Shown one piece after another: positions 4,940 through 64,000 of a stretch of DNA of 64,000 nt. The notes below the pieces were generated by a model. It ran no database searches. It was not told the origin of the DNA and saw only the letters and a program-made list of their open reading frames with translations. Every line of letters starts with the position of its first letter. Positions within the stretch are counted from its first letter, which is position 1. Origin of the DNA: Branchiostoma floridae (taxonomy: Eukaryota; Chordata; Leptocardii; Amphioxiformes; Branchiostomatidae); NCBI RefSeq assembly GCF_000003815.2, contig NC_049981.1, forward strand, positions 5,413,226 through 5,477,225, in the 5' to 3' direction. The position numbers were made by a program, and so were the translations under genes.

Positions 4940-6080
4940 TGTTTGGAATTCGCTGTCGGACAGCGGCACCGTCGGACGATGTAATACAGTAATTGTTGTA
5001 TGTTGTATTTGCTGTCGGACAGCAGCACCGTCGGACGGTGTGGCACAGTAATTGTTGTATGTTGTATTTGCTGTCGGACAGCGGCACCGTCGAACGGTGT
5101 GGTATAGTACATTGTATATTGTATTCGCTGTCGGACAGCGGCACCGTCGGACGGTGTGGTTCAGTACATTGTTGTATATTGTATTCGCTGTCGGACAGCG
5201 GCACTGTCGGACGGTGTGGTACACTACATTGTTGTATATTGTATTCGCTGTCGGACAGCGGCACCGTCGGACGGTGTGGTACAGTGTGGTACAGTACATT
5301 GTTGTATATTGTATTCGCTGTCGGACAGCGGGACCGTCGGACGGTGGGGTACAGTACATTGTTGTATATTGTATTCGCTGTCGGACAGCGGGACCCTCGG
5401 ATGGTGGGGTATAGGACATTGTTGTATATTGTATTCACTGTCGGACAGCGGCACCGTCGGACGGTGTGGTACACTACATTGTTGTATATTGTATTCGCTG
5501 TCGGACAGCGGCACCGTCGGACGGTGGGGTACAGTACATTGTTGTATATTGTATTTGCTATCGGACAGCGTGACCGCCGGACGGTGTGGTACAGTATATG
5601 GCTGTATGTTGTATTCGCTGTCGGACAGCGGCACCGTTGGATGTAGTACTTTGTTGTATATTGTATTTGCTGTTGGACAGCGTGACCGTCGGAGGTGGTA
5701 CGGTACATGGTTGTATGTTGTATTCGCTGTTGGACAGCGGCACCGTCGGACGGTGTGGTACAGTACATTGTTGTATGTCGAACAGTTCTATTTGCCGTTG
5801 GACAGCGGCACCGTTAGACGGTGTGGTACGTTGTTGTTAACTTGTATGTTGTATTTGCCGTAGGACAGCGGCACCGTTGGACGGTGTGGTACAGTACAAT
5901 GTTGTATGTTGTATTTGCTGGTGGACAGCGGACACCGTCGGACGGTGTAGTACAATACATGGTTGTATGTTGTATTCGCTGTTGGACAGCGGCACCGTCG
6001 GACGGTGTGGTGTGATTGTTGGACAATCATGTCGAGAATTCGTTGTTGGACAGCGGGGTAGGTCAGACGGTATGTATAGT
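4940..6080. repeat. 60-bp-unit minisatellite, about 19 copies
   Basis: The unit is close to ATTGTTGTATATTGTATTCG, then CTGTCGGACAGCGGCACCGT, then CGGACGGTGTGGTACAGTAC. Each unit carries two adjacent near-palindromes, CTGTCGGACAG and CACCGTCGGACGGTG. Copies are most uniform from 5100 to 5600 and decay towards 6080. Long open frames on both strands are a by-product of a unit length divisible by three and few stops; they are not proposed as genes. Confidence 0.95.
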
Positions 6081-9546: not shown

Positions 9547-9637
9547 CAACCCACACACGCCCGTACCGGCACAAACTCAGAGATATCTACTACTTCCACC
9601 GTCTCAAGAAGCGTCAAGTTTTCTTAAACCAGGAACC

Positions 9638-26806: not shown

Positions 26807-27073
26807 TTATCTACGACGGGGTACGAGAGACTGGTATTGGCGCATGTTGCTGTGCTGTTTAGAATCCTTCACGTTGACGTACGGTGGGTTAGACGTGTTA
26901 ATGTAGGTGTGACGCGGAGGTGGATGATACGGGGCAGTGTTGACGTACGGGGCAGTGTTGACGTACGGGGCAGTGTTGACGTTGGAGGCAGTGTTGACGT
27001 ACGCAGGCCCGTTTGCTGGCCGTCGCAAACGGCGGTCATGGTCCATCTGAAGCAGGTATCTTCTCCTTCGTTC
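26807..27073 (-). CDS. Last exon: cytosolic tail with five YxN motifs
   Basis: The exon begins [15 protein letters not shown] and ends VPRRR-stop (TAA at 26809-26807). The tail contains YVNT three times, YINT once and YVNV once, plus a degenerate NVNT. Part of this comes from an 18-bp in-frame DNA repeat (GGGGCAGTGTTGACGTAC on the plus strand). pTyr-x-Asn is the established Grb2 SH2 binding consensus, so the tail could recruit such adaptors. That is inference. The acceptor is at 27074 and the phase is 0. Confidence 0.85.
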   Translation of the reverse strand, partial: ERRRRYLLQMDHDRRLRRPANGPAYVNTASNVNTAPYVNTAPYVNTAPYHPPPRHTYINTSNPPYVNVKDSKQHSNMRQYQSLVPRRR

Positions 27074-30000
27074 CTGTGAACACGAACCAAATAAAAAAAA
27101 AGGATCTTTGACACAACCTTTGCTTTATTTCCACTGACGTTTCGGTGACCGTCTGTCACCTTCCTCGTGGTTATTCTGACTGGTTTACTCCATCTGTAAG
27201 CAGCGACAGCTATACTGCAGTACAATGTGTAAAAAAAACAAGTACAAACTGCCCTGAGTAAGGTGGCAGACGGTCACTAAAATGTCGGTAGAATAGAGCC
27301 CTTTGTGTTAGCCATAGGCTAGTTGGGCAGCCCTGTCTGTGCGTTCTGAACAGCCAAACCAATAAAGAAATACAGCAACAGTTGTGAAAAATGGGTTTAT
27401 TTATTCCAGACAAAATTAACACGCTAAGAAAGCCATCTTAACCAGAATTACTGAATTGTTTTATATAAGTGAATAGCGATTGATAATAAAATTTATTACA
27501 AATTCTTGCCCGTGGGCTAATTGCAGGTAACATAAAAGATTCAAACAGTGTAAAAACAATATCACAAGTGCTAATCAAGTCTAAAGCTAATAAAAGCTAA
27601 CTCTAGATCCCGGGTTCGACTCCTTTTTCGAATACAGTGGAAGACGAAAGATACCACCTTTTCTATTATGTGTGAGTTTTGTGATGTTAGAGGGAGAACT
27701 GTTTTCTTGGGCTAGGGTCTGCCAAACAAGGCAGGCCAATAGAAACATCCTCCAATCCGACATCTATTTGTAGACTACTGGTAAATTCTCATCGCGACGC
27801 TTATCTTCATGTAGTATTTATGTTGGATTATGTTTTGTTTCGAGTTCAGGGCACAGTCATTTTCCTACATTACAGACGTGTATAACATAGCACAAAGCCA
27901 GAACAAATACAAAAAGTACAAAAATAAGAGAATCCATCAAAGCAGATTTTATAAACCTTACCCATTCTGTTTCGATCATATTATCCACCCGACGCTGTAT
28001 TTTAGAAACGGTTTCTGGTGACGGTTTAGTTTTCTGAAATGAACCGGATAGATAAAAAATGTAAAGCCGCATGATAACTTAACGTAGCGTCAATGCATAC
28101 AATTAAACTGTCAACAAGGAAGCAGGAGACAAACACAAAGTAAGAAAATATTCCAAGGTTTAGTCTGACTCGGTGGAGCTAGGGAGCCACCTACCGATAG
28201 ATGACGGTAGTGCACCGTGTCCAAATTACAATGCTACCATCCATACATAGCTTACATTGCATACGCACATCATTCCTAGTAATAGAACCATCGTTTTGTC
28301 TGGTGACACTTCCAATGCTATCGTCTATTTTGTTCAGATGTGATGATGAAGAATAATCCACATCAAACTTTCTACGTATTGTTGAACAATAGATATGTAG
28401 CTAAAGTCGCAAGGCTTGGTAGTTTTAGATAGTAATGGATATGTAAATTTGCTTACGACTTAGCTTTTCCTACAGAATCCTAACTCATCAAAGGTTTGGA
28501 AATTTCACGTTAGAAGAGCATTTCATTGATAAGAATCAACCTTACCTTGGTAACTAGCTTGAAGAAGATGATGACCAGAATGATCTTGACCGGTTGGAGG
28601 AGGATGAAGTCAGTCAGGAAGGAGATGAGGAAGGCCAAGAGCCAGGCCTGAGACTTGGCCCTGCCGTAATCATTACCGTACAGGACAGTAAAGGCACCGG
28701 ATACTATAACTATGGCAGCAACCAGGAACCAGGCTGTAGGGAAATTTGTTAGATATGTTACATGTTACTACATACCTCTGGTCTGGGACCTGCTGTAATC
28801 ATTACCGTACAGGACAGTAAAGGCACCGGATAAAATAAGCTTGGCAGCAACCAGGAACCACGCTGTAGGGAAAAATGTTAGATATGTTACATGTAACTAC
28901 ATGAGACAGGTCTGGGACCTGCCGTAATCATTACCGTACAGAACAGTAAAGGCACCGGGGTATTATAACTATGGCAGCAACCAGGAACCAGGCTGTAGGG
29001 AAAATATGTTAGATATGTTACATGTAACTACATGAGCCTGGTCTGGGACCTGCCGTAATCATTACCGTACAGGACAGTAAAGGCACCGGATATTATAACT
29101 ATGGCAGCAACCAGGAACCAGGCTGTAGGGAAGTATGTTAGATATGTTACATGTAACTACATGAGCCAGGCTTGAGACTTGGCCCTGCCGTAATCATTAC
29201 CGTACAGGACAGTAAAGGCACCGGATGCTATAACCATGGCAGCAACCAGGAACCAGGCTGTAGGGAAAATATGTTAGATATGTTACATGTAACTACATGA
29301 GCCTGGTCTGGGACCTGCCGTAATCATTACCATACAGGACAGTAAAGGCACCGGATGCTATAACCATGGCAGCAACCAGGAACCAGGCTGTAGGGAAAAT
29401 GTGTTAGATATGTTACACGAAAGTACAGTAAACATAAAGAGCCAAGCCTGAGACTTGGCCCTGTCGTACTCATTATCGTACAGGACAGTAAAGGCACCGG
29501 AGATTGTAGCTATGTCAGCAATTAGCAGCCAGGCTCTAGGAACAACAGGTGAGAAATTATACATGTGACCTTTTAACCATGAGTTGCAAGGCTAGATGCT
29601 GCAGGAAAAGGGATGGTGCAGACGTAACTAGCTTTGGGCCACCATAAAATGAGATACCAGGCATGATTTTAAGACAGCTTGTCTCCTCACGTTTCTCTTA
29701 GAAACAGCTGTGGTAAATGTGATGAGCAATCCGTTATATGACAGACGCAGAGGTTCGGCTCCGACTGTTTTTTATGTGTTTTTTTGCCGTTTTTATTGGG
29801 CTTTTCTGTTTGCATCGTTATCTCTACGTCTCGCGGCCATGAGATATAGTAGAAAACAGTAGAAAAGAAAACAGTAGAAATTTTATAAAAAGCCAGATAC
29901 ACAGTCATACACAGAGCCAATCAGAAACAAAAGCTCAATTTTTCATGGAGGAAAAAAGGGACATTTGCCAGTTGGTGTACTCACCTACGATAACGCTCCA

Positions 30001-33000
30001 CCAGGGCAATGGGCGGTACGGTTTCTCACTCACGGCAACCTTCGAGCCGTGTTTCTCTATGTCATACCGGGCATCGGATTTCTTCAGAGCTGAAACACAC
30101 AGGGACAAAAAAGAGTAACAAAATTTTACTTTACCGGTCTAGGCTATATTTGAAGTGATAAACGAATCCCAGACTGGCACTACATTTGCAGATCAACGAT
30201 AAACTAAATATCATGAAGGTAACGTTGACAATGCATGCGCAGATTGTTTTAGAATCGAGTTAAAGTAACTGTAACCAGAAAACAAGCATAAACATCTAAT
30301 AAAATGTGGCGTGTTCATTAAGATTTCTCATATCTTATTAATAATCTTAAGATTTGTAAGGTTTTATGTCAATGACGTGTACACTATATTTTGATTTCTG
30401 TCAAATATCGTAGTGTGATTTGTGTCCAGGACTTAGTATTGCATTTTAGAATTTGCATCCTTGAAGATTTGAGAAGATATTCAAAGTATCATGGAACCTC
30501 GTCTGTGTAAGTAGTCATTATAGTCTCGAGGTAGAATGCTAAACTTTCTTCCAACATCAAGGCGTACATGATCGAAATTTTTATGACCAATGTCTGGATC
30601 AATAATGGCCAATCACTTCGGAACGTAAAATCTTATGGATACGTGACGTCAGCAATTGGTCAAACGTGCCAAGTTTATAACGACCCCCGTGTCTGTGTAT
30701 TTGCCCTCATTGATACCTCTTACAAAGTAGTCCTGTTCAGTGTCGGGTATTCTGACTTTTTCCAGTGAAATGGTATAGCCATGTGATTCAACGTGGATGT
30801 GTTAAGTTTATTGATTGATTGAAAGACCTTTATTGTACATTCATGCCTCGACGGGCTAGGTACAGGTCACTGATAAAGAGACTTATCTTACGTTAGAATA
30901 TACAATCCACTTAATTTTGCTACAAGACGTGGAGTAATAAATGTAAGGTCATCTGTGACGGTAGGCAACATTAATTTTGAAAACCCCATACCCGTACACA
31001 AAATAAAGCGCTTACCAACAAGCTTTCGACCAGTCGTCTGATCCTTATTACTTTCTCAGGGGAGTGAAAGAGGCCATTTACATCCGAGCCCACCAACCTT
31101 CCCTCAACCGAGATGGGGGACGATACAGACTGCCACGCACCTTTGACCCTTTGCTGACGTCACACTTCCGGTCTGGATTGTGACTTAGGCTTTGGGTTAT
31201 TACAACTTGATAAGAATCAGAGGACTGATCGAAAGCTTGTTGGTAAGCGCTTTATTTTTTATAGGGTTTTCAAAATTGTAACATAGTGGAGTAATGAATT
31301 ATACGTGCTCACCTCCTTGCTTCTTTAGCTTCTCGATATGTGCGGAAGGATCTGCAGTGTACTCCCTACCGTTCCCACTGGGCAGGTAACGGGGCAGATC
31401 CACGACTCGACCCTTCCGCGGAGTGACGTAGTCGTTCTTGTCCTTCGGGTGGGACCCGTTTGCTGACGATGGAGTGTCGTGACGTGGCCCAGCGTAACGG
31501 AAAAGCACCACGACGATGACGTTGATTGGTAAGGCGATCAGAGAACTCTCCAGGCCGATGATGAACTGAAATATTAGAAAGATAAAGGTATATTAGGAAT
31601 TCTTATGGATTATCATAGTTTGAAAGATAAAATAGGAAATTTTACGACTAAACATCAGATATTTACTAATATATAGTCATTATTATCAGAAACTTGTTTT
31701 TGGTCAAGAGGCATAGCTGGAAAAAGCATGCGATGTTTGCACATTTATCGTAAAACTCAAAATTTGGAAAAAAACACCATATTTCAAGCCATTTCGGTAA
31801 AATACCAGGCACAGAAGCGCAAAATATAATACATTTTTGGTCTGCAAATGGCCAGAAATGCAATGAAATCAATTTTGGGAAGAAATTGAGATGCCTCCAT
31901 CTAAAGTCGTTTGAAATACATTAAAGTACATGTGTGTCAAATTTGGTGCCTTTAGACAAATTTGCACAATTTTAGAGCTATGAGCCTATGTCGCTTGACT
32001 ATCGGCTACCTATAGCGGTGAGAAGCTGAGAACTAGAGTTAGAAGCTCTGACGAAGGTGTCTGAGAGACATCGAAACGTAAGCAATATAAGTACCTGCTG
32101 GTTGTGTAAAAGGAATTCTTCTATATCATATGTTCTGCCAACCTGATGAAACAATTCTTGGTCGCTGGACTACTTGAAAAGAAACGTAATCAGAACCTAC
32201 CGTATCCCAGCTGAACAGTTGTTCCAGTTGGACCCTCCCTCCGGTAACCCTGGGTACGAAATTCCTGTCTCCCCGGTAGAACATGATGTTGACTAACATG
32301 AAGGACATGAGGAGGGACAGACAACAGGAGATCCTCTGCACACGGGTGAAGTGGTTGGAGGGGGGTTTCACCACAGATATCCACAGGTGTTCCGACAGAA
32401 AACGTTTTCCAGTCGTTGTCTGGGGTACATTCTTGTATTCTCTTTGCTGATGGACCCTGTATTCTCTCTTACGCTGACGTCTGTACGCACCCTTTTTTCG
32501 CTGTAAAATTACAACAGACTTATCAACATAATGATAGACATCAATGGAAAACCCTTTTATTACAAGTAGCGATTCGGTAGCCTGATTAAATCTCGTTTAT
32601 AGCGGCCCATCCAGCATCCGACCGGCTCCCTAGACGGAGAGGGGTAAGTCATAGGCCTGGACAGCAGAGTTTGCGTTACACAGACTAGAAGTTGGGTTGA
32701 CGTTGCAATTCTCTTCTTGGTGTCATTTTTCCGTCAGACTCTGTCAGATTTTTCTGCATCATATTCATAGTATTCATAGACATGAGTTCGGCATCCAAAT
32801 GACTAAACTATCGGAATCAAACGTCAATAGTTTCCAGCAATGTTTCCGGGGGGTGGGGGTGGTGGCGTCTTGCAAATGAATCTAAATTTCATGCGCCACT
32901 ATCAAGTATTCAACACTACATGTGTATATGTTTTTATTACAATAGCCATTACGCCGTATGTCTTGTTATTGGATGCCCAAGATCATTTCTTAAAAGAAAA

Positions 33001-36000
33001 CTGAGAAATGCAAACCCTTCGTTCATCATCAAGATCCAAGCTTCTCCCGATGAAAACAGCCACAATATACAAGGCCATCACGACGCACACGGTCACCAGG
33101 GCTATCAGACTTCTGTCCAGGTCAAAGGTGAAAGAACTGCCCAAGTCCAGCGGGTTGGGCGCAACAAAACCAGCAAAGGCTGTCAGGTGGTCACAGTTAC
33201 AGTGGAGCTGCTCATCGGTCGTCTGGGAACCAACCTTGAAAAAATTATTTAAAAAAAATGGATAAATAAATATGGGAAGAGCGTTGGGACCACGAGTTAA
33301 CCCTCAAGCACCCGACCTTTTTTTGCGACTAAAATGACCAAGTGGGGTCCAAACGGACCCCAAAATGTTTTGTTCATAAAATCTCAGTTCCAATTACTAT
33401 CGGTGATCATTGTACATACATTGCTTCGTCAATGTAAGAGGAATATTTTGACATATTAAGATGTTTCTAATGCCACCTCATTATCATAATTTATGCAAAA
33501 TATCAGAAGGACTATGTTTTGCACTAAACCTATTCTGACCAGAAGAGGAATTTTGAGGCCCTCAGCAACTTTTATGTCGCGTAACTCATGAACGGCTAGT
33601 GCTAAAACTACGAAACTTGGTGATATATCACAAAATATTGTTAGCAAAATGTTTTTGTCAATAAAGTAAACTTATCATTATTTGGGGTTGCCATGGCAAC
33701 GGAATTTTGACAGGCATATTTTTGCAAAAAATTTCCAATTTCGATTTAAACATGGTTTTCTTGGTAAACCATGCTTGTTTTCTTACAACAATAAAATTCT
33801 ATGAAGTTCAATGCTATTTTCATGATTCAAAATTTATAATTTATGCTAATTTCATGACGTCATTAGTCAAAATCCAAGATGGCCGCCCTTATTAGCTAAA
33901 TGACGTCATAATGTCGTCATATTATATGGTGATGACACAGAAGTTTCTACGAGGATTTAGTTTTACATGTTTATTATCCCCTAAAAATTTGGTGGTGATA
34001 GGATAAGTAGTTAGGGAGTTAGACTCAACAGTTTGTTTCAAAAACTGCACTTTTTGGCTGGGGTCCGTTTGGACCCCAGACGGACTGATCACGGACTTTC
34101 TTTATAGCTTCCACAGTATTGTACCAATCATCATTAAAACTTAGGAGAAGGTATAGAAGTTATAGACTGACAAAGTCACGGAAGGAATTTTTCTTCAGAT
34201 CAAAAATGTTCAAATGGTACTTCACAATTTACGCCTGGGGTCCAAATGGACCCCACTCGGGTGTTTGAGGGTTTTAAAGACCTCATAAACTGTATCATTT
34301 ATGGTAGAAGATAAGATTTTGTAATAGCCAGAATGTTTGATTAGAAAAATAACACAGTCATTATATTGAAATGTACGGTTTCTAGATTATGATGTTGTGA
34401 ACATTTTCCAAATTTCATAAGTTTCAAAATCTATACAACGAAAGTTACAAGGGAGCTGCGTTTGACAGAATAAATTGATCATAGAATAAGAGAACAGTGG
34501 CAACCTTTTGTCCATTAGCCGAGAAATCACAGGATGTTATAAGCCTAAAGGGATCAGGGTAAGAAGTGAGAAAGTGTGGAGGATGAATGATCATAGAATT
34601 AGTAGGTGCGGATACAAAATACAAATACAACCCACCTCACATCCGCTGTCGGTCCAAAAACTTGACGTTTCGTCGAAGAAAAGACATTTGGATGCTGTGA
34701 TGCTCATGGTGTAGCGAACACTGGAGTCTGACGTCTGTCCGTTCTCGTCAGTGGTTGGAACCCGCTGGAGGCCTACATTTAAACGTATAGGATTCGTTAG
34801 ATAAACTGTCTATTTATCTATTCATCTATTACATCTTGGCCCCTTAAACTTTTAAAAAGCTGACTTCCAAGAGGGGCCTCCATACATGTAAACAGGACAG
34901 GATGTGTTACATTTTGTCAAAGGTAAAACGCCAGTGGATACTAAAAGCGTAAAGGTATAAAGGTAAGAACTTCAAAGCCAAAAAAAGTTAAGAATTTTGA
35001 AGTCTTTAAGAGACTTTGGAAGATAGGTTGATATAGTAGGATGTGACAAAATTGATCAATGGTTTGCTATCTATCGATTACCCTAATAAATTATTTATTC
35101 ATAATGGTAAGAGTCTCATGGAATGTTTTGTCTACTGACACGACATTACCTTATTGATGTATATGATGACAGATCCCATTCAATCGTAAAATGTTAAAGC
35201 AGAATTTAAGCAATACATTCTGAAGGACAGATATATTAAATACATGTCAACAATATGTTCACTTGCCTATTGCCCACTCTTCTCGTTCATTCCCGATATT
35301 TAAAGCTTCCTGGTTCAGAAACCACGTGTACGGGTGTGTAAAGACTCCATTATCTGTTAGAGTAGCATGATGGCTGTAGTCAACAGGTGAGACCACGGCA
35401 CCACGCTTCAGGTAAGCCCTTAACGTGACGTTAACGTCATTGCTGATGACGTCAGGGATGACGCGAATGTAGAGAGCAACACCCGGTTCTGTCGTTTTGA
35501 AATTGTGTAACTGGTGGACCAAAGAAGAGAAAAGGGATCTTTTAGTTAAAGGATTGAAAATGCATAATCACACAACAACAAATAATCCTCTGTCTCGCAT
35601 GAGAGTGTTGATTTGCCAAGTTATTAAGTACTTTAAGCAAAATTTAAGTACTCTGAATATAGTTTGGAATCTTGCAGTACAATTAGGATCTCCTAAATTT
35701 CAACAGAATAGAAGATGGGAGACATGTTTTGTTTACAAATAAGTAGACTAAAAGGTTATTGTACTTTGAGCAATGTGACGTGCTAGTAAGCGATGATCTT
35801 TTCGATGATGATGGCAGGTTCGATCGGCGAAACGAAAACATTGATACACTTTATCAAAACTAGACCTACAGATATTTCCGAAAATAATTCCTTCAGATTG
35901 GCAGAACATAGAATACAGGAATTCTCTTTTACACAACCAGTAAAATCTTGCCTACCTTCCTTTTTAATGCCTATCAGAAATCTTCCTCAGAGAAGAACCC

Positions 36001-51000: not shown

Positions 51001-54000
51001 AAACTTGCTCTCCAATCAGCCTCAGTGTCACTGACGAAAGACAGTGGATGCTCTCTAAACGTCTTACTGTTTTCACATTTATATCCAGTTGCTTGAGTAA
51101 TGCTTTTTGGCGTACGTAATATCCTTTAACCCTATCCAGACCCGGGGCGGGGGGGGGGGGGGGGGCTAAAAGTGCCTGCGCCAACTTTGACGTCGTGTAA
51201 CTGGCGAACGACGTGTGCAAGGACTACGAAACTTGGTGACTTTTCCTCAAAATATTATTTGGCCACAATTATTGCGAAAAAAATTGTCGATCCAAGATGG
51301 CGGACAATGACGTCGCTGCCGCTGTTTAGCTGATAATAACGACTGACTTCGGATTAGCTCTTTTGACCGTCGAAATCCTCTCAGACCGGGCCGAAAAAAA
51401 TGCCCTGACTTCTTTGTTGAAGGCTACATCCACTGGGCACAGTCGGTTGAGGAGGGGTCTGATAAAGTTGAAGTAAGGGCCTTATAATTTCAATCAAAGC
51501 AAAAGCACTGCATATCATTACCTTGTTGGTGGGCACGAGTGTCCGGTTTTTGACATACGGTCGATGCACGTGAAAACCAGGGTACATCTATTTGTGACTG
51601 GGTTTCTACTGCGTTTGTTGCATGCATAACAGCTACATTAATGTTTATGATAAAAGCGAAATCAAGAAGAGAGCAGCTCATGTACTCGTGGAGAGGGAGC
51701 TTGTATTACGCACCAACTAATGCGACACTTCTACAAAGTCTGCCAGTGCAGAGTTCCATATCATATACAACCCCTGCTCTACACGTGCAAGCTGCCCACC
51801 ATCAACGTAATGCTATGCAGTGGCTCTCGCTCCCACAATACCTATACTCGGTGGGTGTAGCCTTTGACAAAGAATAGCATAGCATTTTTCTTTGGCCATT
51901 CCTGTTCAACTGGGGCTATTTTTGACGGAGGTGTTCGAAATAGAATAGAGGGTTCCATCTTGTTCTATTTGTTCGATATGACGTTAGATCGGGATCGGTC
52001 CATTTAATGAAGTGTTAAACTTAACATACGGAAGCAAGTCGGTGGACCCATACTCCAGGCACTCCAGGCACCCCTCACAAGACAGGTAAGTCTGGTATGG
52101 CCGACCAGGTAGTACCCGGTGTTACAGGTGAAGGTGACCTGATCCTGGTACTGACGTCTATTTGTAGGACTCAGCGCACCGTTCGCTGGTGCTGTCAGGG
52201 AAGGGCATTGTACAGCTGGAGATGTAAAATACAAATAGCGTTATAGATTGGTAATAAAAGAGTAAACATTAAAACGTATCTAAATGTCTGACACACCTTA
52301 TTCAATCTTCTGCATTAACGACATCAATCAGACTGGAAAATAATAACATGCTTAAAGGGGAATCGTTGAGGATCCTGTAAGCGAGATCGTGTGGCGAAAG
52401 TGTTCGACCCATAACCAGAAGGTTCTGGGTTCGAATCCATTGATGTCCACTTAACACGGCTTTCCTTACTTTACTCAGGTGAAAATGAATACCTAGCTTT
52501 GGTACGGCCGTCCCTTGGATAGGACGTTAATGGAGGTCCCGTGTTCGAGCATCACCTCGAGTACATCAAAGAACCAACCAGATTAATCGAAAAGGCTAGG
52601 TGTCATTCCCGGTTTCAAGTAGCTAAAAACCTAGTTCTATTTTCGCACTGTTCTAGAGCAATTGCTGTCGTTTTGAGGTCACCTGAGTTAGTCCCGAATG
52701 ACAGCCGCTCCAGACCCTTGTGGTTGTCGTATTGAGGTAATCTGAGTTAGCACCGAATGGCAGCTGCTCCAGGCCCTTAGCCCAGCCTAGCACCTATTGT
52801 AAGCTCCTCGCAATTCAGCCCCTGGCTACGAGGAGAGAGTAGTCGGCCTAGCCAATAATAACAACAATAACAATCTTGACGAACGTGTTAGACAGCTGTT
52901 TGACAGTTTGTGGTCACCTTTACTTTGCAAATCTTTATTAATGCCAAGTATAATCTTTTTGCCACAAATTGATCATTTTTGAAATCATTTCTAGACAAGA
53001 ATTCCAGAGGCATTTTCTTCTCTACGAAGCTAGGATGGGACGATAAATCAAGAACAGCGAGTGCAAAAGGCATCATGCACGGACAGGTAAATTGGCAGAT
53101 GTTCCGTGTAAGACATCACGACTAGAACCAGTCCTGATAACCAGGGTGAGGGAATTGAAGATCAAGGGCTGAATCTTTTCGCACCGAGTTTAACAATATA
53201 AACGTAAGGACATCCAAGTTTGTAACTGGGAAAGATAAACAAAAGAGACGGGCAGTGTTGGCGGCTATTTACTTAATTTAGCCACGCAATAAACACGAAT
53301 ATTGCAACAACGCTTGCGGTTCGCATGATAGAAGTCTCACAAAGAGTATAAATTAATTTTCAAGGTAGGCAAGATTGCAAACAAAGTAAAATATGTCTAT
53401 AGAAAATGAGTCCATATGAAGTACACACATGAAATTAGTATGATTGGCAAAAAGGTATTGATAGTCACATTTGCACTACCCACTCCAAAATTTACGATCA
53501 TGACTGCAACGACTATCTCAAGGGCAAACATCATTGTGTAGCCGTACAAGAGAACACCTTTAAGCTAGGGGCACAACCCGCCGTACTTGCAAGTGCGTGC
53601 TGTCTACGTGCCAAAACGTGGGCAATCTTTTGGTATCCGTAAGTGGTAAGTACCGTCTCCGTACGAACACGTGGCGAATCACACGGATTTGGGAGCACGC
53701 AGACGCGCCGTAGAAATTTAAGTGCATGCAGAACTTTCTCTGCGTTCGGGCTGCGGATTCGCCCTCCGTACGTGCCAGTACGGGCGACGCGCCTGCCCTG
53801 TACAGCCAATGGGCGCACAACGCACTGGCTCCGTGAGTTTATTAAAGTTTTCTCATGGTCAAGTGCTCTTGTAGTTACTATTGTAGCATCAGAATCCGGA
53901 GTCTCTGCGGTGGAATGGGTGGCATCTTCCTTGAGGCAGCTGCTAGGACTTCTGGAGGCAGCCGCTAGGACCTTGAAAGGTCGTCCTATATAAACATCTC

Positions 54001-57000: not shown

Positions 57001-60000
57001 CCCCGAGCGAAGTCAGGTACCCATTATTTTACTTGTGCGGAGAGCGGAAAGTCGTGTTAAGTTCGGCTGAAGCTCTGCTGTGTGAAAAGGGCCATCCTGA
57101 CGGTTCTCACCTGTTTCGCAGTTGGGGCCCACGAATCCCGTAGTACAGCGGCACTGGTAAGCCTGGCCACCGTTGATGCTGACGCACTGGCCACCGTTCT
57201 GGCATGGATTGCTCTGGCACGGGTTTGTCTGGGCAACTGTGAGGAAGGAAGAACGGTTTTATGAGTTAATTTGGTGAACATATTTATTTTTTGCCGGCAT
57301 GAACTACAGTAAAGAGAGAAGCACTGATACCATTACCAGTAAGGCCCACTTCCCGATATCTGGTACACAGACCGATATTGTTTTGTATGGTTATCATATT
57401 CAACTCTCATTTTACATTCACGGATTCAGTACGATCCAAGACATAGCAGCAATGCGGAATGGAAAATCGAAAAATTGGCTCCAATAGCTGTCTGTAGTCT
57501 ACATTTTTCTACATGAGTTCTGATATAGACACTAACCTATACAGACAGTCTGGGCAATCTGCTTGATCTCGGCGCTCAGTGCGTTGAAGTCGGTCAACTC
57601 GATCACGTTGTTCTGGTGGCCGGCAGCGATTTCCAAAAGTTCGGTGGTATTGTAGTTGCCCACGCCGATGGCGTAGACACCCACCCCTTGGGAGGCCAGG
57701 TCATTAGCAGATGACGTCACAAAATCAGCTGACTTACCGTCAGTCACGACAATCATCACCTGAAAAGGGAGGAAGGTGACCAAGTATTTAACAAAAATCA
57801 CCTCAAGAATATGTAAATAACATAACAGCGTACATCGCCGCAAGAAGAAGATAGGTTCTAAAACTATTTAGCCAAGTCACGCCAAATCTTTTCGATACTT
57901 GTGTCGGGTTCTTTTACGTGCAAAGGTTGGAAGATTGTGGATAATGAATGACGTCGTTCCATCATACGCGGTGTCGCCGGCGCTACGTCAAGTATGATGA
58001 ATGTTTTTTTATGACCGTACTTTTGGAACACTTCCACCTCTCCATGCTGCATTCAGACGGGCGAACTCCAGAGCGGACCCGGTCTGTGTGCTGCCACCCT
58101 GTCGTGAGATGTTGTCAATAGCGGCCAAGGTAGATAGCTTGCCAGCATGGTCACCAAGGTTGAATTCCAAGCTGAAAACCAATATGACAGTTCGAAACTA
58201 ACTCTTTGCCAGTGTTTCTTTAAAACCTTGCTATGTACTATAGAAATAGTAAACTGTTCTCCAACTAAAAGCAATGGGCTCACTGGAATCTTCTAATAAA
58301 TCACTCAGTTCTCTTTAATTGTCTGTACACGAGATTTCTGTGACGGCAATAGGTCAAATGCTGTTGGAAATATACATAGAACATCTAAGTGCCTCATATT
58401 GCCTCTTCTACAGGTAGCTTTTTATAACATCCGTTTTCTATATCTAGAGAATGGGCGCTGATTTTCATCTTTCAAACGATGACCAGATGACATTTAAAAC
58501 TCACGTGTTGAAGCCAGAGTACTGCACCACACCAACCCTGGTGGCGCTCGCGCTGATGTCGAAAGGGTTCACCACGTTCTTAGTAAACTGTTTCATCTTA
58601 TCGAAGTTGGCGTAAGTTACGCTGCCGGATCCGTCCAGCACGAAGAACAAGTCCAGCGGTGCGTTACATATCGGCGCAGGGGTAGTCGGCCCTGGGGTAA
58701 ACATGAAACGATACCGACATAAAGACGTAATACACTAAGTCGCTCCATAGGTGGTTATTTTTGGTGACGCCTCAGGTGCGAGCCTAATACTAAGTATAGT
58801 TTTCGACCGTTTGACAAGGATTTCCAAAATCTCGCAGGCATGTCAGGAATTTTTCTACAGGCATGTGTAGTTGCATCATCCCTTACCAGGGGAATAACTC
58901 GGGAATGGGTTGACAGATATCTTCATGGCATTTGGAGTGTAGATAGCTTCAGAGATAACTTACATAATTAAATGGAAATCATGCAAATTAGGGGCAAATT
59001 AGGGGTAATTTGCAAAAGTGATGAGGACAGTTTATCAATACAATGCAATTCATGTTAGAATGCTAAAAAATATGCCATATGTAACTCAAAAAGAGAGAAA
59101 TATTAGGCTTACTGTTCAGAATATATCCGATTGGGAAAAATTTCCGAAATTTTACAGCAATTCGTCCGCGCGTGCGCAATTGCACCATCCTTTTGAAAGG
59201 GAATAACTCGGGAAGGGGTTAATGAGCACAGTTTATTGAGCTACAGTATTTCATTACTGATAAGGCACTTAAACATGACAAATGTAACTAGAAAAAAGAG
59301 AAATTTCGATAGACATCAATCATGCAAACTGTTACCTAATTTACATAATTAATGAGAAATCGCTATTAAAGTGTTAAATGAAAAAAGCTCAATTCTTGAG
59401 ACATTTGGTAACCTTTCATACCTTGAACACATTGTTATTTAGGTAGAGGAGCTCAGCTGATATCTTTTTATGCAAATGAGGACCTAATTTGTATAATTAA
59501 TGAGAAACATTTATGATGATAGGTCATTCGTCATGATAGATCACGTTTCTTGTTATCAGCAATGCCCTACAAACATCCATCGCGTAAAATGATTTTCATA
59601 CATAAAGCTAGGCTAAAGGGTCAGGACAAATACAACACGCATACAACAACAATAATTAATGCTTATTAACAATAAAACCGTCGCCATGGCAATAGTTTTT
59701 ATTGCCACACTTATTGCTCTTGAACATTATGAATCAATCAAACACACTAAGAGACCAGGACATAACTTTTGAGCAACCAAAAATATCATATGAAATTACC
59801 GATTTGATATTTGTGCTTTTGAATTTTTGCAAAATTTCACTCGGCGTACCCAAAAGCTCTGTCAACGCCGCGGTCAGGGGTGAATTAGGAGTTTTCCCAC
59901 TTTATATTGATTCACAGACACAGATGATAAAATACTGGCTTAGATTATATAGTCTCCCAAATGACAGACTTGTAAAGAAAGCATATAATACTTCTGTTGA

Positions 60001-63000: not shown

Positions 63001-64000
63001 GAATACCATACTCCGTACTTGCTAACCACGGTTAGTAAGCGAAAGGATTGAGCCAGCGGTCACTACGGAGGATGATACTCAGGATAATTCGATGGTACGA
63101 TAGTACAATTGCTACCATATATCAAGGCCGGAAATGGTCTGGTTGAAATGGTTTATTAAGGACTTTAAGACGTGCATATAGACCTCGTAGCAAGTCTGAT
63201 TATTACGTCGGGCGGTCCAGGGGGTCACGTGGTGAGAGCACGTGGCCCTGGGCGCGCCCAGACGTCAACTTGACCACGCCCCGCCGCCTTTAAGTACTTG
63301 GATATAAGGCGCGATACGCTCTAGATAGGCTAGAAGCAGACTCTGAGAGACAGGGACAACGCATCCTCTGCCGCCATAGTCTCACAACCGGTTAGTTAGT
63401 ATTATCCATCAACAACTTCCGTTCAGGTATTTGTACCTTATATTGTTATAGTAAGTTAGTCTAAACCATCGCAACCATTCTCTTGTGAATCGAGTCATAG
63501 TATAAATAAAGATCACATCAATCTGTATACCGAACCTGGTCCTTGGTTTAGAATTTTGCTTTAAGAATGTGTCTATTTTGCAAATGTGTCTATTTTAACA
63601 TTTGATTGACATTTGTAGCATGTATCAATTTTAAACGCTATATAAAGGTACCTTTATAGAACATCAGAAAAAAGGGAAATTTTAAACTTAAACGTTGTAA
63701 ATATTTTTTTTTGGAAAATAACATAAAAATGCAAATTGAAATCTTTCAAAAAAACTTCAAATCTTGAAAAACTGCTTTGGCCGAAGATGCATCCAGGTTA
63801 AATAAATTTTTTAAAAAACGTGACTAAAAGATAAGAAAAGAGCCTAAAAAATATTCTAAAATCATACCCACAATAATGCACTAATTGTTCAAATCTTATG
63901 TTGTTCAACCCACCATTTGGTAGAGTGCAGTTGTCCTCAGGCAGCTGTAGGCAGAACCAAGCATACCGTATAGCACCGACGGCCTCAGATCGTTCCCCAC
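26807..64000 (-). CDS. Mosaic polycystin-1/REJ-like adhesion receptor lacking PLAT and channel (5' end outside window)
   Basis: Forty exons were assembled with consistent phase (5' to 3'): 64000-63914, 62828-62649, 62270-62094, 61666-61490, 58691-58505, 58171-58021, 57759-57537, 57236-57111, 52215-52030, 50280-49705, 48933-48720, 48263-48136, 47849-47670, 46866-46690, 46513-46334, 45970-45632, 45229-45110, 44767-44652, 44267-44051, 43809-43246, 42738-42558, 42253-42022, 41749-41587, 41196-41078, 40394-40272, 39074-38913, 38506-38381, 37941-37836, 37368-37277, 36974-36735, 36389-36174, 35510-35267, 34772-34636, 33234-33016, 32500-32201, 31565-31313, 30089-29985, 28733-28546, 28033-27962, 27073-26807. 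Together they give 2,615 codons and a stop. Domains in order: Frizzled CRD, three Sushi, VWA, EGF, Sushi, VWA, Frizzled CRD, three Sushi, Ser/Thr-rich linker, two EGF, SEA-like, EGF, REJ, GAIN/GPS, five TM, tail. All introns are GT-AG except one GC-AG. REJ, GPS and the TM1-TM5 motifs place it in the polycystin-1 family. Role inferred: cell-surface adhesion or recognition. Confidence 0.85.
27105..27195 (-). mobile_element. Retroelement 3'-end fragment with hairpin
   Basis: Read on the minus strand, GAGGAAGGTGACAGACGGTCACCGAAACGTC forms a short stem (GGTGAC/GTCACC) followed by GAAACGTC, then AAATAAAG. Such hairpin plus GAAACGT ends are common at 3' ends of SINEs and LINEs. Confidence 0.45.
27962..28033 (-). 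CDS. Exon 39: juxtamembrane segment after TM5
   Basis: It encodes [19 protein letters not shown] and a few more residues ending TEW. It is a basic, probably helical cytosolic segment. Its phase (0-0) links the TM5 exon to the tail exon. In other polycystin-1 family proteins the chain continues here towards six more membrane segments. Confidence 0.85.
28546..28733 (-). CDS. Exon 38: TM4 and TM5
   Basis: It encodes [20 protein letters not shown], a short charged loop, then [19 protein letters not shown] with further hydrophobic residues. The pattern SGAFTVLYG...W...SF...D..L.QP.K is a hallmark of the polycystin-1/PKD1L/REJ TM4-TM5 region. The upstream exon contributes the G of GCC, so the junction reads IVAWFL. 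This is the only complete copy: six truncated copies of its first half lie upstream at 28740-29545. Confidence 0.9.
28740..29545 (-). repeat. Six tandem truncated copies of the TM4 exon
   Basis: A unit of about 130 bp (range 129-146) recurs; the conserved word CTGCCGTAAT (or a variant) marks copies at 28790, 28919, 29050, 29185, 29315 and 29461, after the intact one at 28661. Each contains about 75 bp of the exon's first half (AWFLVAA...[10 protein letters not shown]) with its acceptor CTACAG. Flanking intron follows instead of the TM5 half. The copy at 28919 has a one-base insertion that shifts the frame. The farthest copy (29461) is the most diverged ([20 protein letters not shown]). No copy has an obvious downstream donor in frame, so they look like pseudo-exons. 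Confidence 0.85.
29985..30089 (-). CDS. Exon 37: cytosolic loop entering TM4
   Basis: It encodes [20 protein letters not shown] followed by [14 protein letters not shown]. The last base (G) completes an Ala codon with exon 38. The P-W-W entry into TM4 is typical of the family. Confidence 0.88.
30973..31277. mobile_element. Foldback MITE with ~70-bp inverted repeats
   Basis: The left arm includes AATTTTGAAAACCCC and AATAAAGCGCTTACCAACAA. The right arm is their inverted form, TTGTTGGTAAGCGCTTTATT and GGGTTTTCAAAATT. It lies in the intron between exons 36 and 37. Confidence 0.8.
31313..31565 (-). CDS. Exon 36: TM3 and following loop
   Basis: It begins [20 protein letters not shown], then LFRYAGPR. 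The GLESSL-I--PIN motif is diagnostic of polycystin-1 family TM3. A charged loop ([16 protein letters not shown]) follows. Confidence 0.92.
31960..32130 (+). repeat. Dispersed retroelement end, copy 1
   Basis: GGCTACCTATAGCGGTGAGA...GAAGCTCTGACGAAGGTGTCTGAGAGACATCGAAACG...CTGGTTGTGTAAAAG. A second copy lies at 36040-36160 in the same gene. The hairpin GGTGTCT/AGACATC followed by GAAACG resembles SINE/LINE 3' tails. Confidence 0.6.
32201..32500 (-). CDS. Exon 35: TM1-TM2 cytosolic loop and TM2 (no PLAT)
   Basis: It starts [20 protein letters not shown], reaches [20 protein letters not shown], then TM2 ([20 protein letters not shown]). HLWISV-x(n)-FTRVQR is the standard block just after the PLAT domain in polycystin-1 proteins. 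Here only about 40 residues separate it from TM1, and no PLAT exon fits in the 484-bp intron between exons 34 and 35. Confidence 0.9.
33016..33234 (-). CDS. Exon 34: second half of GPS and TM1
   Basis: It encodes [20 protein letters not shown], then TM1 ([20 protein letters not shown]) and a short charged stretch. HCNCDHLT carries the GPS cysteines and the H-L-T tripeptide at which GAIN domains self-cleave. The donor is GTTTGC, weaker than usual. Confidence 0.92.
33301..34271. mobile_element. piggyBac-like non-autonomous element
   Basis: The left side is TTAA followed by CCCTCAAGCACCCGACC and GGGGTCCAAACGGACCCC. The right end has GGGGTCCAAATGGACCCC...GGGTGTTTGAGGG followed by TTTTAA. A TTAA target and CCCT/AGGG ends fit piggyBac. 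No transposase is present in about 970 bp. An interior segment (CTACGAAACTTGGTGA, AATCCAAGATGGC) is shared with fragments at 51170-51310 and about 61930-61990. Confidence 0.75.
34636..34772 (-). CDS. Exon 33: end of GAIN, first half of GPS
   Basis: It encodes [20 protein letters not shown], then [18 protein letters not shown]-(F/W)-W-x-x-x-G-C is the first half of the GPS motif, completed by exon 34. Confidence 0.92.
35267..39074 (-). CDS. Exons 26-32: GAIN-domain region
   Basis: Seven exons (39074-38913, 38506-38381, 37941-37836, 37368-37277, 36974-36735, 36389-36174, 35510-35267) encode about 395 residues. Helix-rich, acidic sequence comes first ([20 protein letters not shown]...[20 protein letters not shown]). 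Beta-rich sequence follows, with [20 protein letters not shown] and LYIRVIPDV. This is the usual helical subdomain A and beta-sandwich subdomain B of a GAIN domain ahead of a GPS. Exon 32 ends in a GC donor (AG|GCAAGT), the only non-GT donor in the gene. Several N-glycosylation sequons are present (NTT, NGT, NKT). Confidence 0.85.
36040..36160 (+). repeat. Dispersed retroelement end, copy 2
   Basis: Same family as 31960-32130: CGGCTACTTATAGTGGCGAG and CTGGTTGTGTAAAAG are shared. Confidence 0.6.
37600..37785. mobile_element. Foldback element with TCTCGCGAG core
   Basis: The arms GCTGACAGTCCATCT and AGATGGACTGTCAGC are inverted. CTAGTCTCGATCTCTCGAGA and TTCTCTCGCGAGTCTAG lie between. The right arm word GAGCAAGATGGACTG is related to the elements at 41265 and 48354. 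Confidence 0.65.
39238..40088. mobile_element. pogo-like non-autonomous element, 851 bp
   Basis: The ends are CCGTCAAACCTGTCC and GGGCAGGTTTGACTG, flanked by TA on both sides. Subterminal TGGTCG(C/T)TGAGAAGAGG words repeat at both ends. It lies in the intron between exons 25 and 26, and no transposase is encoded. Confidence 0.75.
40272..43809 (-). CDS. Exons 20-25: EGF followed by REJ domain
   Basis: Exons 43809-43246, 42738-42558, 42253-42022, 41749-41587, 41196-41078 and 40394-40272 encode about 460 residues. The first starts with a calcium-binding type EGF ([17 protein letters not shown]) that has only five cysteines before running into the REJ region. REJ landmarks are [62 protein letters not shown] and [14 protein letters not shown] modules are found in sea urchin receptor for egg jelly, PKDREJ and polycystin-1. 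Confidence 0.9.
41265..41420. mobile_element. Half copy of a foldback element
   Basis: CTCTCGCGAGAG, ATCACTCCGTGAACAAGATG and GTGTTTACCTTTAAAAATG match the right half of the element at 48354-48565. Confidence 0.6.
42950..43175 (+). mobile_element. tRNA-derived SINE, copy 1
   Basis: A degenerate B box (GAGTTCGAATCA near 43012) is followed by GGCCGTCCCGCAGATAGGAC and AATGGAGGCC. These are shared with the copy at 52376-52600. The antisense strand has a 70-codon frame with CPNC/CPIC pairs that mimics a zinc finger but is repeat-derived. Confidence 0.65.
44051..44767 (-). CDS. Exons 18-19: SEA-like domain
   Basis: Exons 44767-44652 and 44267-44051 encode about 111 residues: [57 protein letters not shown] and [19 protein letters not shown]. 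The opening helix, the F-RGS-VA/V strand and the C-terminal helix fit an SEA fold. A GSVVV-type cleavage site is not clearly present (GSLVAV stands in its place). Confidence 0.6.
45110..45229 (-). CDS. Exon 17: calcium-binding EGF
   Basis: [20 protein letters not shown] then [11 protein letters not shown]. The DVDEC start and the C-x-N-x-x-G-Y/F-x-C pattern are those of cbEGF. The exon is phase 1-1. Confidence 0.9.
45632..45970 (-). CDS. Exon 16: Ser/Thr-rich linker and EGF
   Basis: About 75 residues of Ser/Thr/Pro/Ile repeats of the form (S/T)ISTRP or SISTIGST come first. The EGF ([20 protein letters not shown]) follows, with six cysteines. The linker is likely O-glycosylated and extended. 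The repeat in DNA is imperfect with a period of roughly 33-66 bp. Confidence 0.85.
46334..47849 (-). CDS. Exons 13-15: three Sushi (CCP) domains
   Basis: Exons 47849-47670, 46866-46690 and 46513-46334 are each 177-180 nt and phase 1-1. Each encodes one Sushi module: C-L-AP-NG-(R/L)(T/S)P, then (T/V)(F/T)[15 protein letters not shown] and P-C. Four cysteines and the Trp are intact in all. The last two are closer to each other than to the first, which suggests recent duplication. Confidence 0.92.
47009..47235. mobile_element. Foldback element with CCCTGTCACATT ends
   Basis: CCCTGTCACATTATCCGCGA and CGCCAAATGTGACAGGG form terminal inverted repeats. It lies in the intron between two Sushi exons. 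Confidence 0.6.
48136..48933 (-). CDS. Exons 11-12: complete Frizzled cysteine-rich domain
   Basis: Exons 48933-48720 and 48263-48136 encode [54 protein letters not shown] and [14 protein letters not shown]. All ten Frizzled CRD cysteines can be placed. The fold binds Wnt lipids in Frizzled and related ligands elsewhere; ligand binding here is not known. Confidence 0.93.
48354..48565. mobile_element. Foldback MITE with 90-bp arms
   Basis: The arms begin GTTGATAGGATTTTCATCAA and end TTGATGAAAATTCTATTAAC. They pair inward through GTAGTGACTAC/GTAGTCAC, ACACGTACC/GGTACGTGT and TTTCGATGGCTATCAGT/ACTGATAGCCATCGAAA. CTCTCGCGAGA is at the centre. Confidence 0.85.
49705..50280 (-). CDS. Exon 10: second VWA domain in a single exon
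   Basis: About 190 residues: [20 protein letters not shown], the MIDAS Thr in [10 protein letters not shown], and [13 protein letters not shown]. The DxSxS, T and D metal-site residues are all present, so metal-dependent ligand binding is plausible. Unlike the first VWA (three exons), this one has no intron. Confidence 0.93.
51130..51420. mobile_element. piggyBac-like fragment with poly-G tract
   Basis: TTTAACCCTATCCAGACCCG is followed by a run of 17 G (51149-51165), then GGACTACGAAACTTGGTGAC and ATCCAAGATGGCGGACAATG. These words are shared with the interior of the element at 33301-34271. The G run may be a sequencing or assembly weak point. Confidence 0.5.
52030..52215 (-). CDS. Exon 9: Sushi domain
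   Basis: [34 protein letters not shown] and [19 protein letters not shown]. It is phase 1-1 and more diverged than the other Sushi modules. Confidence 0.9.
52376..52600 (+). mobile_element. tRNA-derived SINE, copy 2
   Basis: GTGTGGCGAAAGTGTTCGAC (A-box region) and GGGTTCGAATCC (B box, near 52427) are tRNA-like. The 3' part has GGCCGTCCCTTGGATAGGAC and AATGGAGGTCCCGTGTTCGA. Confidence 0.7.
53486..54713. repeat. Duplicated intron segment flanking the hAT-like element
   Basis: 53486-53564 and 54636-54713 share AAAATTT(A/G)CGATCATGACTG and AATTGTGTAGCCGTA-like words over about 78 bp. Sequence after the element (TTTGAAGATGTGTATCCTAG near 54408) matches 50924-50950, so the neighbourhood is a patchwork of old duplications. 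Confidence 0.65.
53565..54370. mobile_element. hAT-like non-autonomous element with 8-bp target duplication
   Basis: The ends CTAGGGGCACAACCCGCCGT and ACGGCGGGTTGTGCCCCAGG are inverted repeats (18 of 20 match). Flanks are CCTTTAAG on the left and GCTTTAAG on the right, 7 of 8 identical, as expected for hAT. A duplicated intron segment at 54636-54713 carries the same flank without the insertion. A 181-codon antisense frame inside has no recognisable transposase motif. Confidence 0.7.
54938..55030. repeat. Dispersed repeat, copy 1 (copy 2 at 58762-58865)
   Basis: GACGCCTCAGGGGCGAGCC at about 54943 is matched by GACGCCTCAGGTGCGAGCC at about 58764. Both are followed by similar CAGGCAT- and TTTTTC-containing sequence. 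Confidence 0.55.
55400..55462. repeat. (CA)n/(CT)n microsatellite
   Basis: ACTCACACTCACACATACTC and neighbouring TCTCTCTC and CACACACA runs. Confidence 0.9.
55463..57055. other. Intron sequence; short imperfect repeats only
   Basis: Near 55660-55775 the words CTGGAATTCCAA and AACATTGCC(A/T)CCTT recur about four times at 27-36 bp spacing. No exon or clear mobile element is seen in the rest. Confidence 0.5.
57111..57236 (-). CDS. Exon 8: EGF domain
   Basis: [20 protein letters not shown], then [15 protein letters not shown]. Six cysteines and the GG and GF-G motifs are intact. Phase 1-1. Confidence 0.93.
57537..58691 (-). CDS. Exons 5-7: first VWA domain
   Basis: Exons 58691-58505, 58171-58021 and 57759-57537 encode [36 protein letters not shown] and [14 protein letters not shown], then [17 protein letters not shown] residues DGSGS, the Thr of GGSTQTG and the Asp of TDG are present. 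The donor at 58021/58020 (AAA|GTACGG) keeps the frame and restores the expected [11 protein letters not shown] junction. Confidence 0.92.
58870..59500. repeat. Imperfect ~310-bp tandem duplication in intron
   Basis: GGGAATAACTCGGGAATGGG (about 58889) recurs as GGGAATAACTCGGGAAGGGG (about 59200). Both are followed by ACATAATTAA(A)TG words. Confidence 0.55.
59700..60590 (+). pseudogene. 5'-truncated LINE, C-terminal part of the reverse transcriptase protein
   Basis: A 142-codon frame (59702-60130) encodes [40 protein letters not shown] and [14 protein letters not shown]. These are the block downstream of the reverse transcriptase in many invertebrate CR1/L2/RTE-type elements. After a stop or frameshift the protein resumes as [20 protein letters not shown] with a C-x2-C...H...C tail. 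The 3' end has ACAATTGTCGCGCAATAAAA near 60565. The palm domain and endonuclease are missing, so it is dead on arrival. Confidence 0.75.
61052..61096 (-). pseudogene. Sushi exon remnant (first ~15 codons)
   Basis: It reads [14 protein letters not shown] and then ends. The adjoining intron sequence (GGCAATGACCTTTATTTACG) matches the flank of the functional Sushi exon at 46513, so this is a duplicated and truncated copy. Confidence 0.7.
61211..61309 (-). pseudogene. Half Sushi exon, possibly splice-competent
   Basis: It encodes [20 protein letters not shown], then [13 protein letters not shown], and stops at a potential donor (TCGG|GTATCT). With its acceptor the fragment is 99 nt and phase 1-1, so it could be spliced in without breaking the frame. 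It would supply only two of the four Sushi cysteines. I left it out of the gene model. Confidence 0.6.
61490..62828 (-). CDS. Exons 2-4: three Sushi domains
   Basis: Exons 62828-62649, 62270-62094 and 61666-61490, each 177-180 nt and phase 1-1. Each has four cysteines and TCQADGTW. The first two carry TNG-RTP(S/A)TG-N-Y, the third TNGALSPPG, mirroring the order in exons 13-15. That supports duplication of a whole Frizzled-Sushi x3 cassette. Confidence 0.92.
61848..61918 (-). pseudogene. Sushi exon remnant (second half) abutting repeat sequence
   Basis: Minus-strand [16 protein letters not shown] and the donor GTAAGATG are intact, but the first half of the domain is replaced. The neighbouring 61920-61990 sequence (TTTATGTCGTATAA, ACAGAACTTGGCGACCTGTC) is related to the piggyBac-like elements at 33301 and 51130. 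Confidence 0.7.
62283..62453. mobile_element. Diverged inverted copy of the MITE at 1108-1281
   Basis: GGTGGAAGCCCGTCAATTGC and CCGTGCAATTAAGCGGC are the ends. It is flanked by TA and shares ACGGTGCGGTCCA and AACTTCGCATTAT with the first copy in opposite orientation. Confidence 0.7.
63200..63540 (+). mobile_element. Probable solo LTR
   Basis: The block has a TATA-like box (TTGGATATAAGGC, about 63298) and a GC-rich upstream part with CACGTG sites. A leader of about 180 bp follows, then AATAAAG (about 63506). This promoter-leader-poly(A) order in about 330 bp is typical of an LTR. The exact ends and target duplication were not resolved. Confidence 0.4.
63914..64000 (-). CDS. Exon 1 in view: C-terminal part of another Frizzled CRD (partial)
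   Basis: It encodes [20 protein letters not shown], then EDNCTLPN, and ends at a donor in phase 1. It aligns with the end of the complete Frizzled CRD ([15 protein letters not shown]). The rest of the domain and the protein's start lie beyond 64000. Confidence 0.85.

Follow-up and report, generated by a model that had tools for sequence, protein, structure and literature searches.

Analysis of the sequence confirms in outline that a 64,000-nucleotide stretch of the Branchiostoma floridae genome (the window; C3:5413226-5477225) holds most of a gene, gene A, in which the stalk and first five membrane helices of the polycystin-1 family carry an ectodomain of borrowed Frizzled (Fz), Sushi, VWA and EGF modules. 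The main oddity of this gene is the absence of PLAT and of the channel half; the preliminary description of this DNA had listed five transmembrane segments (TM) without comment. We propose, with a probability of roughly 0.58, that a single PKD1/REJ gene encodes a cleavable surface receptor of ~2,810 residues, acting as a receptor rather than as a channel subunit. Gene A looks like a real, constrained gene and is modelled as one transcript.

Flanking DNA (100 kb to the left, 140 kb to the right) was added to the window, giving 304,000 joined bases, of which 29,152 are N, including much of the stretch left of the window and upstream of gene C (see below); genome searches covered 513 Mb in 431 contigs. 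A simple gene finder based on splice sites and codon usage placed gene A on the minus strand, the plus strand yielding noise without cysteine-rich modules, and the model was then corrected by hand. It comprises 43 exons and 2,810 amino acids with a single stop at the end, and was chosen to be open. The 39 exons that touch the window agree with the 40 exons claimed earlier, and the stop codon (26,807-26,809) coincides with the start of the region described there. The 5′ end lies beyond the window, the signal-peptide exon, the whole of Fz1 and the greater part of Fz2 falling within 64,001-82,878 (window numbering, used throughout). The full order is signal, Fz, Fz, Sushi x3, VWA, EGF, a weak Sushi, VWA, Fz, Sushi x3, Ser/Thr linker with EGF, EGF, SEA-like, EGF, REJ, GAIN/GPS, TM1-5 and tail (Table 1). 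Apart from the donor of the GPS-TM1 exon, poor splice scores were seen at the donor of Sushi4 (-0.6) and at the GAIN acceptor at 36,983 (-1.9).

The signal-peptide-like exon 1 (55 bp) has a GTAAGT donor and a phase-1, in-frame join to Fz1 both in gene A and in its sister gene B, and the region around it is 83% identical to the start of B. A further B exon, 'DGALTVLSL...', was considered after the signal exon; similar pieces recur nearby on both strands, so exon 1 was taken as spliced straight to Fz1. A stop-to-stop open frame of ~1,190 aa (70394-73972, minus strand) lies inside the presumed first intron of gene A and is perhaps a mobile-element gene. Elsewhere in the window, a small plus-strand gene at ~9633-13949 has a B12D (NADH-ubiquinone reductase MLRQ subunit) domain (41.5 bits), an open frame at 19196-23514 is similar to it, and a 60-bp minisatellite (4948-6011, 17.6 copies) is open in several frames.

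Table 1. Exons and modules of gene A, listed from 5′ to 3′ of the gene, in window numbering.
Feature	Position	Strand	Remarks
Signal-peptide exon	82824-82878	-	outside window
Fz1	64831-65366	-	outside window
Fz2a	64267-64477	-	outside window
Fz2, second exon	63914-64041	-	63914..64000 inside window
Sushi x3	61490-61666, 62094-62270, 62649-62828	-	Pfam Sushi, 3 stretches
Broken Sushi pieces	~61.9 and 61.0-61.3 kb	-	
VWA1	57537-57759, 58021-58171, 58505-58691	-	three exons; Pfam VWA 141 bits
EGF exon	57111..57236	-	Pfam EGF 31 bits
Sushi4 exon (doubtful)	52054..52215	-	good donor absent; last Cys past usable splice site
VWA2	49705..50280	-	single exon; Pfam VWA 143 bits; relatives of 70-75% identity elsewhere in genome
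Fz3	48136-48263, 48720-48933	-	two exons; 10 Cys; Pfam Fz 69 bits
Sushi x3	46334-46513, 46690-46866, 47670-47849	-	Pfam Sushi, 3 stretches
Ser/Thr-rich linker and EGF exon	45632..45970	-	cEGF/EGF_3 matches; 83% identical in B
EGF_CA exon	45110..45229	-	Pfam EGF_CA 31 bits
SEA-like module	44051-44267, 44652-44767	-	two exons
EGF_CA and REJ	40272-40394, 41078-41196, 41587-41746, 42022-42253, 42558-42738, 43246-43809	-	six exons
GAIN, four of eight exons	37277-37368, 37836-37941, 38381-38506, 38913-39074	-	
GAIN, exons 1-4 by coordinate	34636-34772, 35267-35510, 36174-36389, 36735-36983	-	
GPS motif and TM1 exon	33016..33234	-	weak donor (-1.5); same exon in B-G
TM2 exon	32201..32500	-	directly after TM1, without PLAT between
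TM3 and intracellular loop exon	31313..31565	-	
Exon preceding TM4	29985..30089	-	
130-bp minisatellite	28639..29540	-	Tandem Repeats Finder; repeats TM4 acceptor and first ~72 bp of TM4-5 exon
TM4 and TM5 exon	28546..28733	-	polycystin-1 homology
Last exon, cytoplasmic tail and stop	26807..27073	-	open frame; acceptor 2.9; homologous tails in B, C, F, G

Pfam profiles were run on ten spliced pieces of gene A, with absences stated at E up to 1. They matched three Fz domains (52, 70 and 69 bits), two VWA domains (141 and 143 bits), Sushi stretches in groups of 3, 1 and 3, and EGF/EGF_CA. Ten cysteines are kept in all three Fz domains, which correspond to the Frizzled cysteine-rich domain, with no Pfam match to the Frizzled transmembrane part. 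The VWA domains are of MIDAS type by eye, and 29 N-glycosylation sequons precede TM1. Both Sushi arrays in the preliminary description were recovered; broken pieces lie beside the first, and the additional exon at 52 kb has no good donor; the reading frame survives omission of that exon. The domains named there otherwise matched their profiles, with the exception of SEA and GAIN. The SEA-like module, which may resemble SEA cleavage motifs, is modelled as two exons whose genome matches (6/6) lie in genes A, B and C only; it had no Pfam SEA match at E up to 10 and no relevant match among PDB profiles.

Closer to the membrane, REJ of gene A scores 213 bits against a cut-off of 25 (PF02010, profile positions 5-410 of 452), and a genome-wide REJ search (best 93 of 125 candidates) recovers the locus. 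The GPS scores 32 bits against a cut-off of 22.5 (PF01825), carries an HLT motif and sits in the same exon as TM1, just ahead of it. The GAIN region between REJ and GPS has no Pfam match, and we infer it from that position. The hydropathy profile shows five membrane segments, the number claimed earlier, and lacks a sixth; TM2 appears as two overlapping peaks. In a phmmer search of the PDB, three distinct sequences matched, all of them polycystin-1 (best 6a70_B, E 1.4e-16). The alignment with 6a70_B is collinear over TM2-3 and TM4-5, skips the PLAT stretch and does not extend beyond residue 604 of 1,153. Searched alone, TM1 gave no significant polycystin-1 match (score below zero). Together with two tandem sister genes, the Pfam matches and the homology to human polycystin-1 bear out the earlier description of a polycystin-1-like receptor and of its module order, except that the order begins outside the window with a signal peptide and an extra Fz.

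The cytoplasmic tail of gene A contains five YVN/YIN motifs and a YQSL end motif. Y-x-N is a Grb2 SH2 site. Y-x-N motifs are more numerous in the tails of A (5) and B (6) than in those of C (1), F (1) and G (2), and in F one Y-x-N Tyr is replaced by Phe; a YQSL or YESL end motif is present in A, B, F and G, and the tails of D and E were not found. The Y-x-N motifs of gene A come partly from a repeated 'YVNTAP' unit, so a motif shuffle test is not independent.

These tails belong to a small set of close relatives. A TM2-3 query returned at least 130 genome matches (best 150 of 191 candidates), with seven loci at 66-97% identity: A, B, C, D and E on C192, F at C3:7.60 Mb and G at C7:20.57 Mb. 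The next-best loci fall to 47-51%, and many of the remaining ones adjoin listed channel matches. Gene A is the most 3′ of three tandem genes on the same strand; B spans ~144-99.7 kb and C ~175-147.5 kb, and both end with the same REJ-GAIN-GPS-5TM part as A.

The REJ domain defines the PKD1/REJ family (PMC1934368). By its REJ, its GPS ahead of TM1 and its homologous TM2-5, gene A is a member of that family, without the channel and without PLAT, a domain that is common in the family and not universal. Human polycystin-1 (PKD1; 6a70_B) has TM2-3 and TM4-5 homologous to those of gene A in the same order, TM1 before them and REJ and GPS in front, whereas gene A lacks both PLAT and the TM6-11 channel/TOP part. 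Pfam found no PLAT, 7tm, PKD_channel or SEA match in gene A at E up to 1.

The missing half would be accounted for if this were an ordinary 11-TM polycystin-1-like gene, with PLAT and channel exons missed or placed further 3′; many other TM2-3 loci do have channel matches nearby. None of the PLAT matches listed (84; best 150 of 248 candidates) and none of the PKD_channel matches listed (of 158; best 150 of 400 candidates) lies near the seven loci; absences in these genome-wide searches, in which the best-scoring candidates were taken, are weak. In 7/7 close relatives, no PLAT lies in the interval from TM1 to TM2, where the introns measure ~390-690 bp, and in A, B, C, F and G the tail runs to a stop. 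The stop of C is only 3.3 kb ahead of the first exon of B, and 35 minus-strand ORFs of at least 40 aa between the C stop and Fz1 of B gave no Pfam match near cut-off, the sole weak one being DUF3305 (E 0.097); 69 ORFs downstream of A were inspected by eye. With no PLAT between TM1 and TM2 and no channel nearby among the matches listed, we rejected a full-length polycystin and regard missed or displaced exons as very improbable.

Adhesion GPCRs share a modular ectodomain and a GAIN/GPS stalk with gene A, and the GPS beneath adhesion-type modules could be read as belonging to one (GAIN/GPS with 7 TM). Gene A, in contrast, has REJ, five hydrophobic segments in place of seven helices and PDB matches to polycystin-1 only; with no 7tm_2 match at E up to 1, a GPCR is ruled out at the sequence level, and we give this reading next to no weight. 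Two loci beyond the seven, at C4:8.65 Mb and C18:5.28 Mb, contain TM4-5 relatives (59-60% identity) and REJ matches, with no channel or PLAT among the matches listed, and are possibly further channel-less members.

We then considered whether gene A is one gene or two. The preliminary description had taken in-frame junctions as a sign of one gene. Every outer module in our model begins and ends in phase 1, so any order of modules stays in frame and the frame is no evidence for a single gene; lancelet exon shuffling is reported to be biased towards phase 1-1 exons (PMC4284660). The weak part of the model is 57-48 kb, and continuity of the transcript there is presumed. Within it, ~4.9 kb without a convincing exon separate the EGF at 57.1 kb from Sushi4 at 52.2 kb, a gap in which the gene finder put spurious exons. 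VWA2 relatives sit at many loci without a listed REJ match (VWA2 search, best 150 of 273 candidates), and some 'novel architectures' of lancelets are reported to be fused gene predictions (PMC4967905). All of this would suit two neighbours read as one: a secreted or short Fz-Fz-Sushi x3-VWA1-EGF protein, followed by a receptor running from (Sushi)-VWA2-Fz3-Sushi x3 to REJ and 5TM.

Gene B speaks against such a division. It was modelled as a continuous run of signal-Fz-Fz-Sushi array-Ser/Thr linker-EGF-SEA-EGF-REJ-GPS-5TM, without VWA, so that both halves of A match one gene. In gene C, whose 5′ side includes runs of N, ten Sushi matches were found and none to Fz. The 5′ part of A matches that of B, and the A Sushi exon at 47670-47849 is 98% identical to the next-to-last Sushi of B; A thus resembles B with a block inserted, and looks like a B-like gene that received VWA1-EGF-Sushi-VWA2-Fz3 within its Sushi array. 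Neither B nor C yielded a counterpart of VWA1, EGF, VWA2 or Fz3, so the joining of these four modules to both flanks rests on order and strand. A separate 3′ gene would also have to supply a signal peptide. In a simple scan, the interval from the EGF exon to the VWA2 exon (50,281-57,110) contained 0 candidates for a further signal exon resembling exon 1 (ATG, phase-1 donor, hydrophobic core); the same scan recovered exon 1 of both A and B, with a background of 0.05 candidates per kb over the whole stretch. This mildly favours one gene, and we consider two neighbouring genes unlikely, though a reading to be taken seriously.

To compare constraint along the single-gene model, dN/dS was estimated between A and B by the Nei-Gojobori method on hand-picked exon pairs, with the GPS-TM1 pair cut to 64 codons. 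Left out were the Sushi exon at 47670 (98% identical, no silent change), the other Sushi exons, the EGF exon at 45110, the REJ exons at 41078 and 40272, the GAIN exon at 36735 and, for want of a counterpart in B, the VWA-Fz3 block. The outer modules (461 codons) and the SEA-REJ part (486 codons) both gave 0.55, compared with 0.23 for GAIN (359 codons, seven of eight exons), 0.17 for TM (344 codons) and 0.39 for the tail (86 codons). Counts of nonsynonymous and synonymous differences (Nd:Sd) differed between the outer set and GAIN plus TM (p = 2e-6), and both sets were below neutrality (4e-6 and 8e-21, respectively). In the TM4-5 exon, all differences between A and B are silent, leaving the protein 100% identical. 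Purifying selection that is strong on GAIN and TM1-5, together with weaker constraint outside, fits a constrained signalling base beneath a faster-evolving outer part.

Broken Sushi exons at 61.9 and 61.3 kb, the doubtful Sushi4 and a TM4 minisatellite with a broken unit could instead mean that gene A is a copy in decay, part of a tandem array that is unstable, and yields no working product. The 2,810-residue model has no internal stop, although it was picked to be open, and dN/dS of 0.17-0.23 over 703 GAIN and TM codons speaks against decay, although the A/B comparison is silent on which copy kept the constraint. The ten cysteines kept in all three Fz domains likewise speak against decay, which we think improbable.

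The minisatellite itself has 7 copies in A (one broken), 4 in B and 8 in C, with 5, 3, 2 and 1 found in D-G. In 27/29 scored units, a weak GT donor follows an in-frame 57-bp helix, and we considered whether the array supplies alternative helices. Within a locus, pN/pS among the units is 0.66, compared with 0.18 for the terminal exon across the seven loci, and at least 2/30 units are broken or frame-shifted. Alternative helices are disfavoured by these values; because the units are less constrained and partly broken or shifted, a minisatellite overrunning the start of the exon is preferred, and its upstream units are probably non-coding.

The outer modules have relatives well beyond the tandem array. 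Fz2-like exons adjoin REJ in A and B, and D and E both carry VWA2-like exons (72-73% identity) upstream of REJ and on its strand, at a distance of ~4 kb in D and ~8 kb in E. Fz matches (best 150 of 167 candidates; the GPS search took the best 150 of 195) also occur upstream of REJ on the same strand at C10:3.48 Mb (five, at 36-38% identity, directly upstream of REJ within C10:3.456-3.499 Mb) and at C17:1.69 Mb (one weak match, 38%). Both of these polycystin loci share with gene A an Fz directly upstream of REJ but differ from it by channel matches (C10:3.46-3.50 Mb and C17:1.66-1.70 Mb), C10 also having a PLAT match. Since Fz and VWA matches occur at many loci, the outer modules belong to families spread widely in the Branchiostoma floridae genome. 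Dense clusters of Fz2-related exons with no listed REJ nearby are found at C3:2.02-2.07, C4:10.19-10.23, C3:11.82-11.83 and C3:12.86-12.88 Mb and on C290. Single-exon VWA domains 64-75% identical to VWA2 are found on C192 and C198 and at C2:5.35-5.43 Mb and C3:4.37 and 4.84 Mb, and apparently form a module family of their own.

How new is this architecture? The ectodomain of gene A has Fz, Sushi, VWA and EGF, in contrast to the LRR, CTL and WSC of polycystin-1 (PMC9672506). The sea urchin proteins SpREJ1-10 share the REJ family with gene A, some members being without PLAT and channel and SpREJ1 having one EGF; the available text of PMC1934368 describes C-type lectin, SUEL, WSC, PKD-repeat and EGF modules among them, and no Fz, Sushi or VWA and no five-TM member. 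Sea urchin members of the PKD1/REJ family with 0, 1, 2 and 6 TM are described in the same source. Five TM without PLAT, combined with Fz, VWA and Sushi, is not named in that text or in the results of our literature search, in which no work on lancelet REJ receptors was apparent by title or the start of the abstract. The earlier proposal of a 'new class' of receptor is nevertheless too strong, given members with 0, 1, 2 or 6 TM, Fz beside REJ at two other loci and VWA upstream of REJ in two relatives.

Returning to the single-gene receptor, we can sketch how it might work. Gene A probably encodes a GPS-cleaved recognition receptor that works without a channel. The faster-evolving outer modules would contact partners outside the cell, with Wnt-like or lipid ligands suggested by Fz and proteins or microbes by VWA and Sushi. 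Wnts have been reported as activators of human PC1 (PMC9672506). The chain would cleave itself at the GPS, with the halves remaining associated, and pull or ligand binding would expose the stalk. For human PC1, the stalk has been proposed to work via TOP, a domain within the channel half (PMC9672506); because that channel-borne domain is absent here, the stalk of gene A would have to act on TM1-5. In the tail, phosphorylated Y-x-N motifs would recruit Grb2-type adaptors and the YQSL motif would drive endocytosis; a Grb2-linked phagocytic receptor has been reported in amphioxus and is cited as context only (PMC10199209). The HLT motif is present, and cleavage, ligand and signalling are all put forward as predictions from sequence.

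More tentatively, and as an idea we hold possible rather than probable, a branch of lancelet polycystins may have dropped the channel, PLAT and TOP, leaving TM1-5, under strong selection, as a free-standing signalling module driven by the GPS stalk, perhaps as a Wnt-type or microbe sensor signalling through Y-x-N. The polycystin stalk would then serve as a base for shuffled recognition modules. It is still debated whether polycystin-1 acts as a lone receptor or in a channel complex, and the stalk model published for human PC1 works via TOP (PMC9672506). A polycystin naturally without channel, TOP and PLAT but with TM1-5 would make the lone-receptor question directly testable. If the idea is true, the front half of polycystin-1 can signal without the channel.
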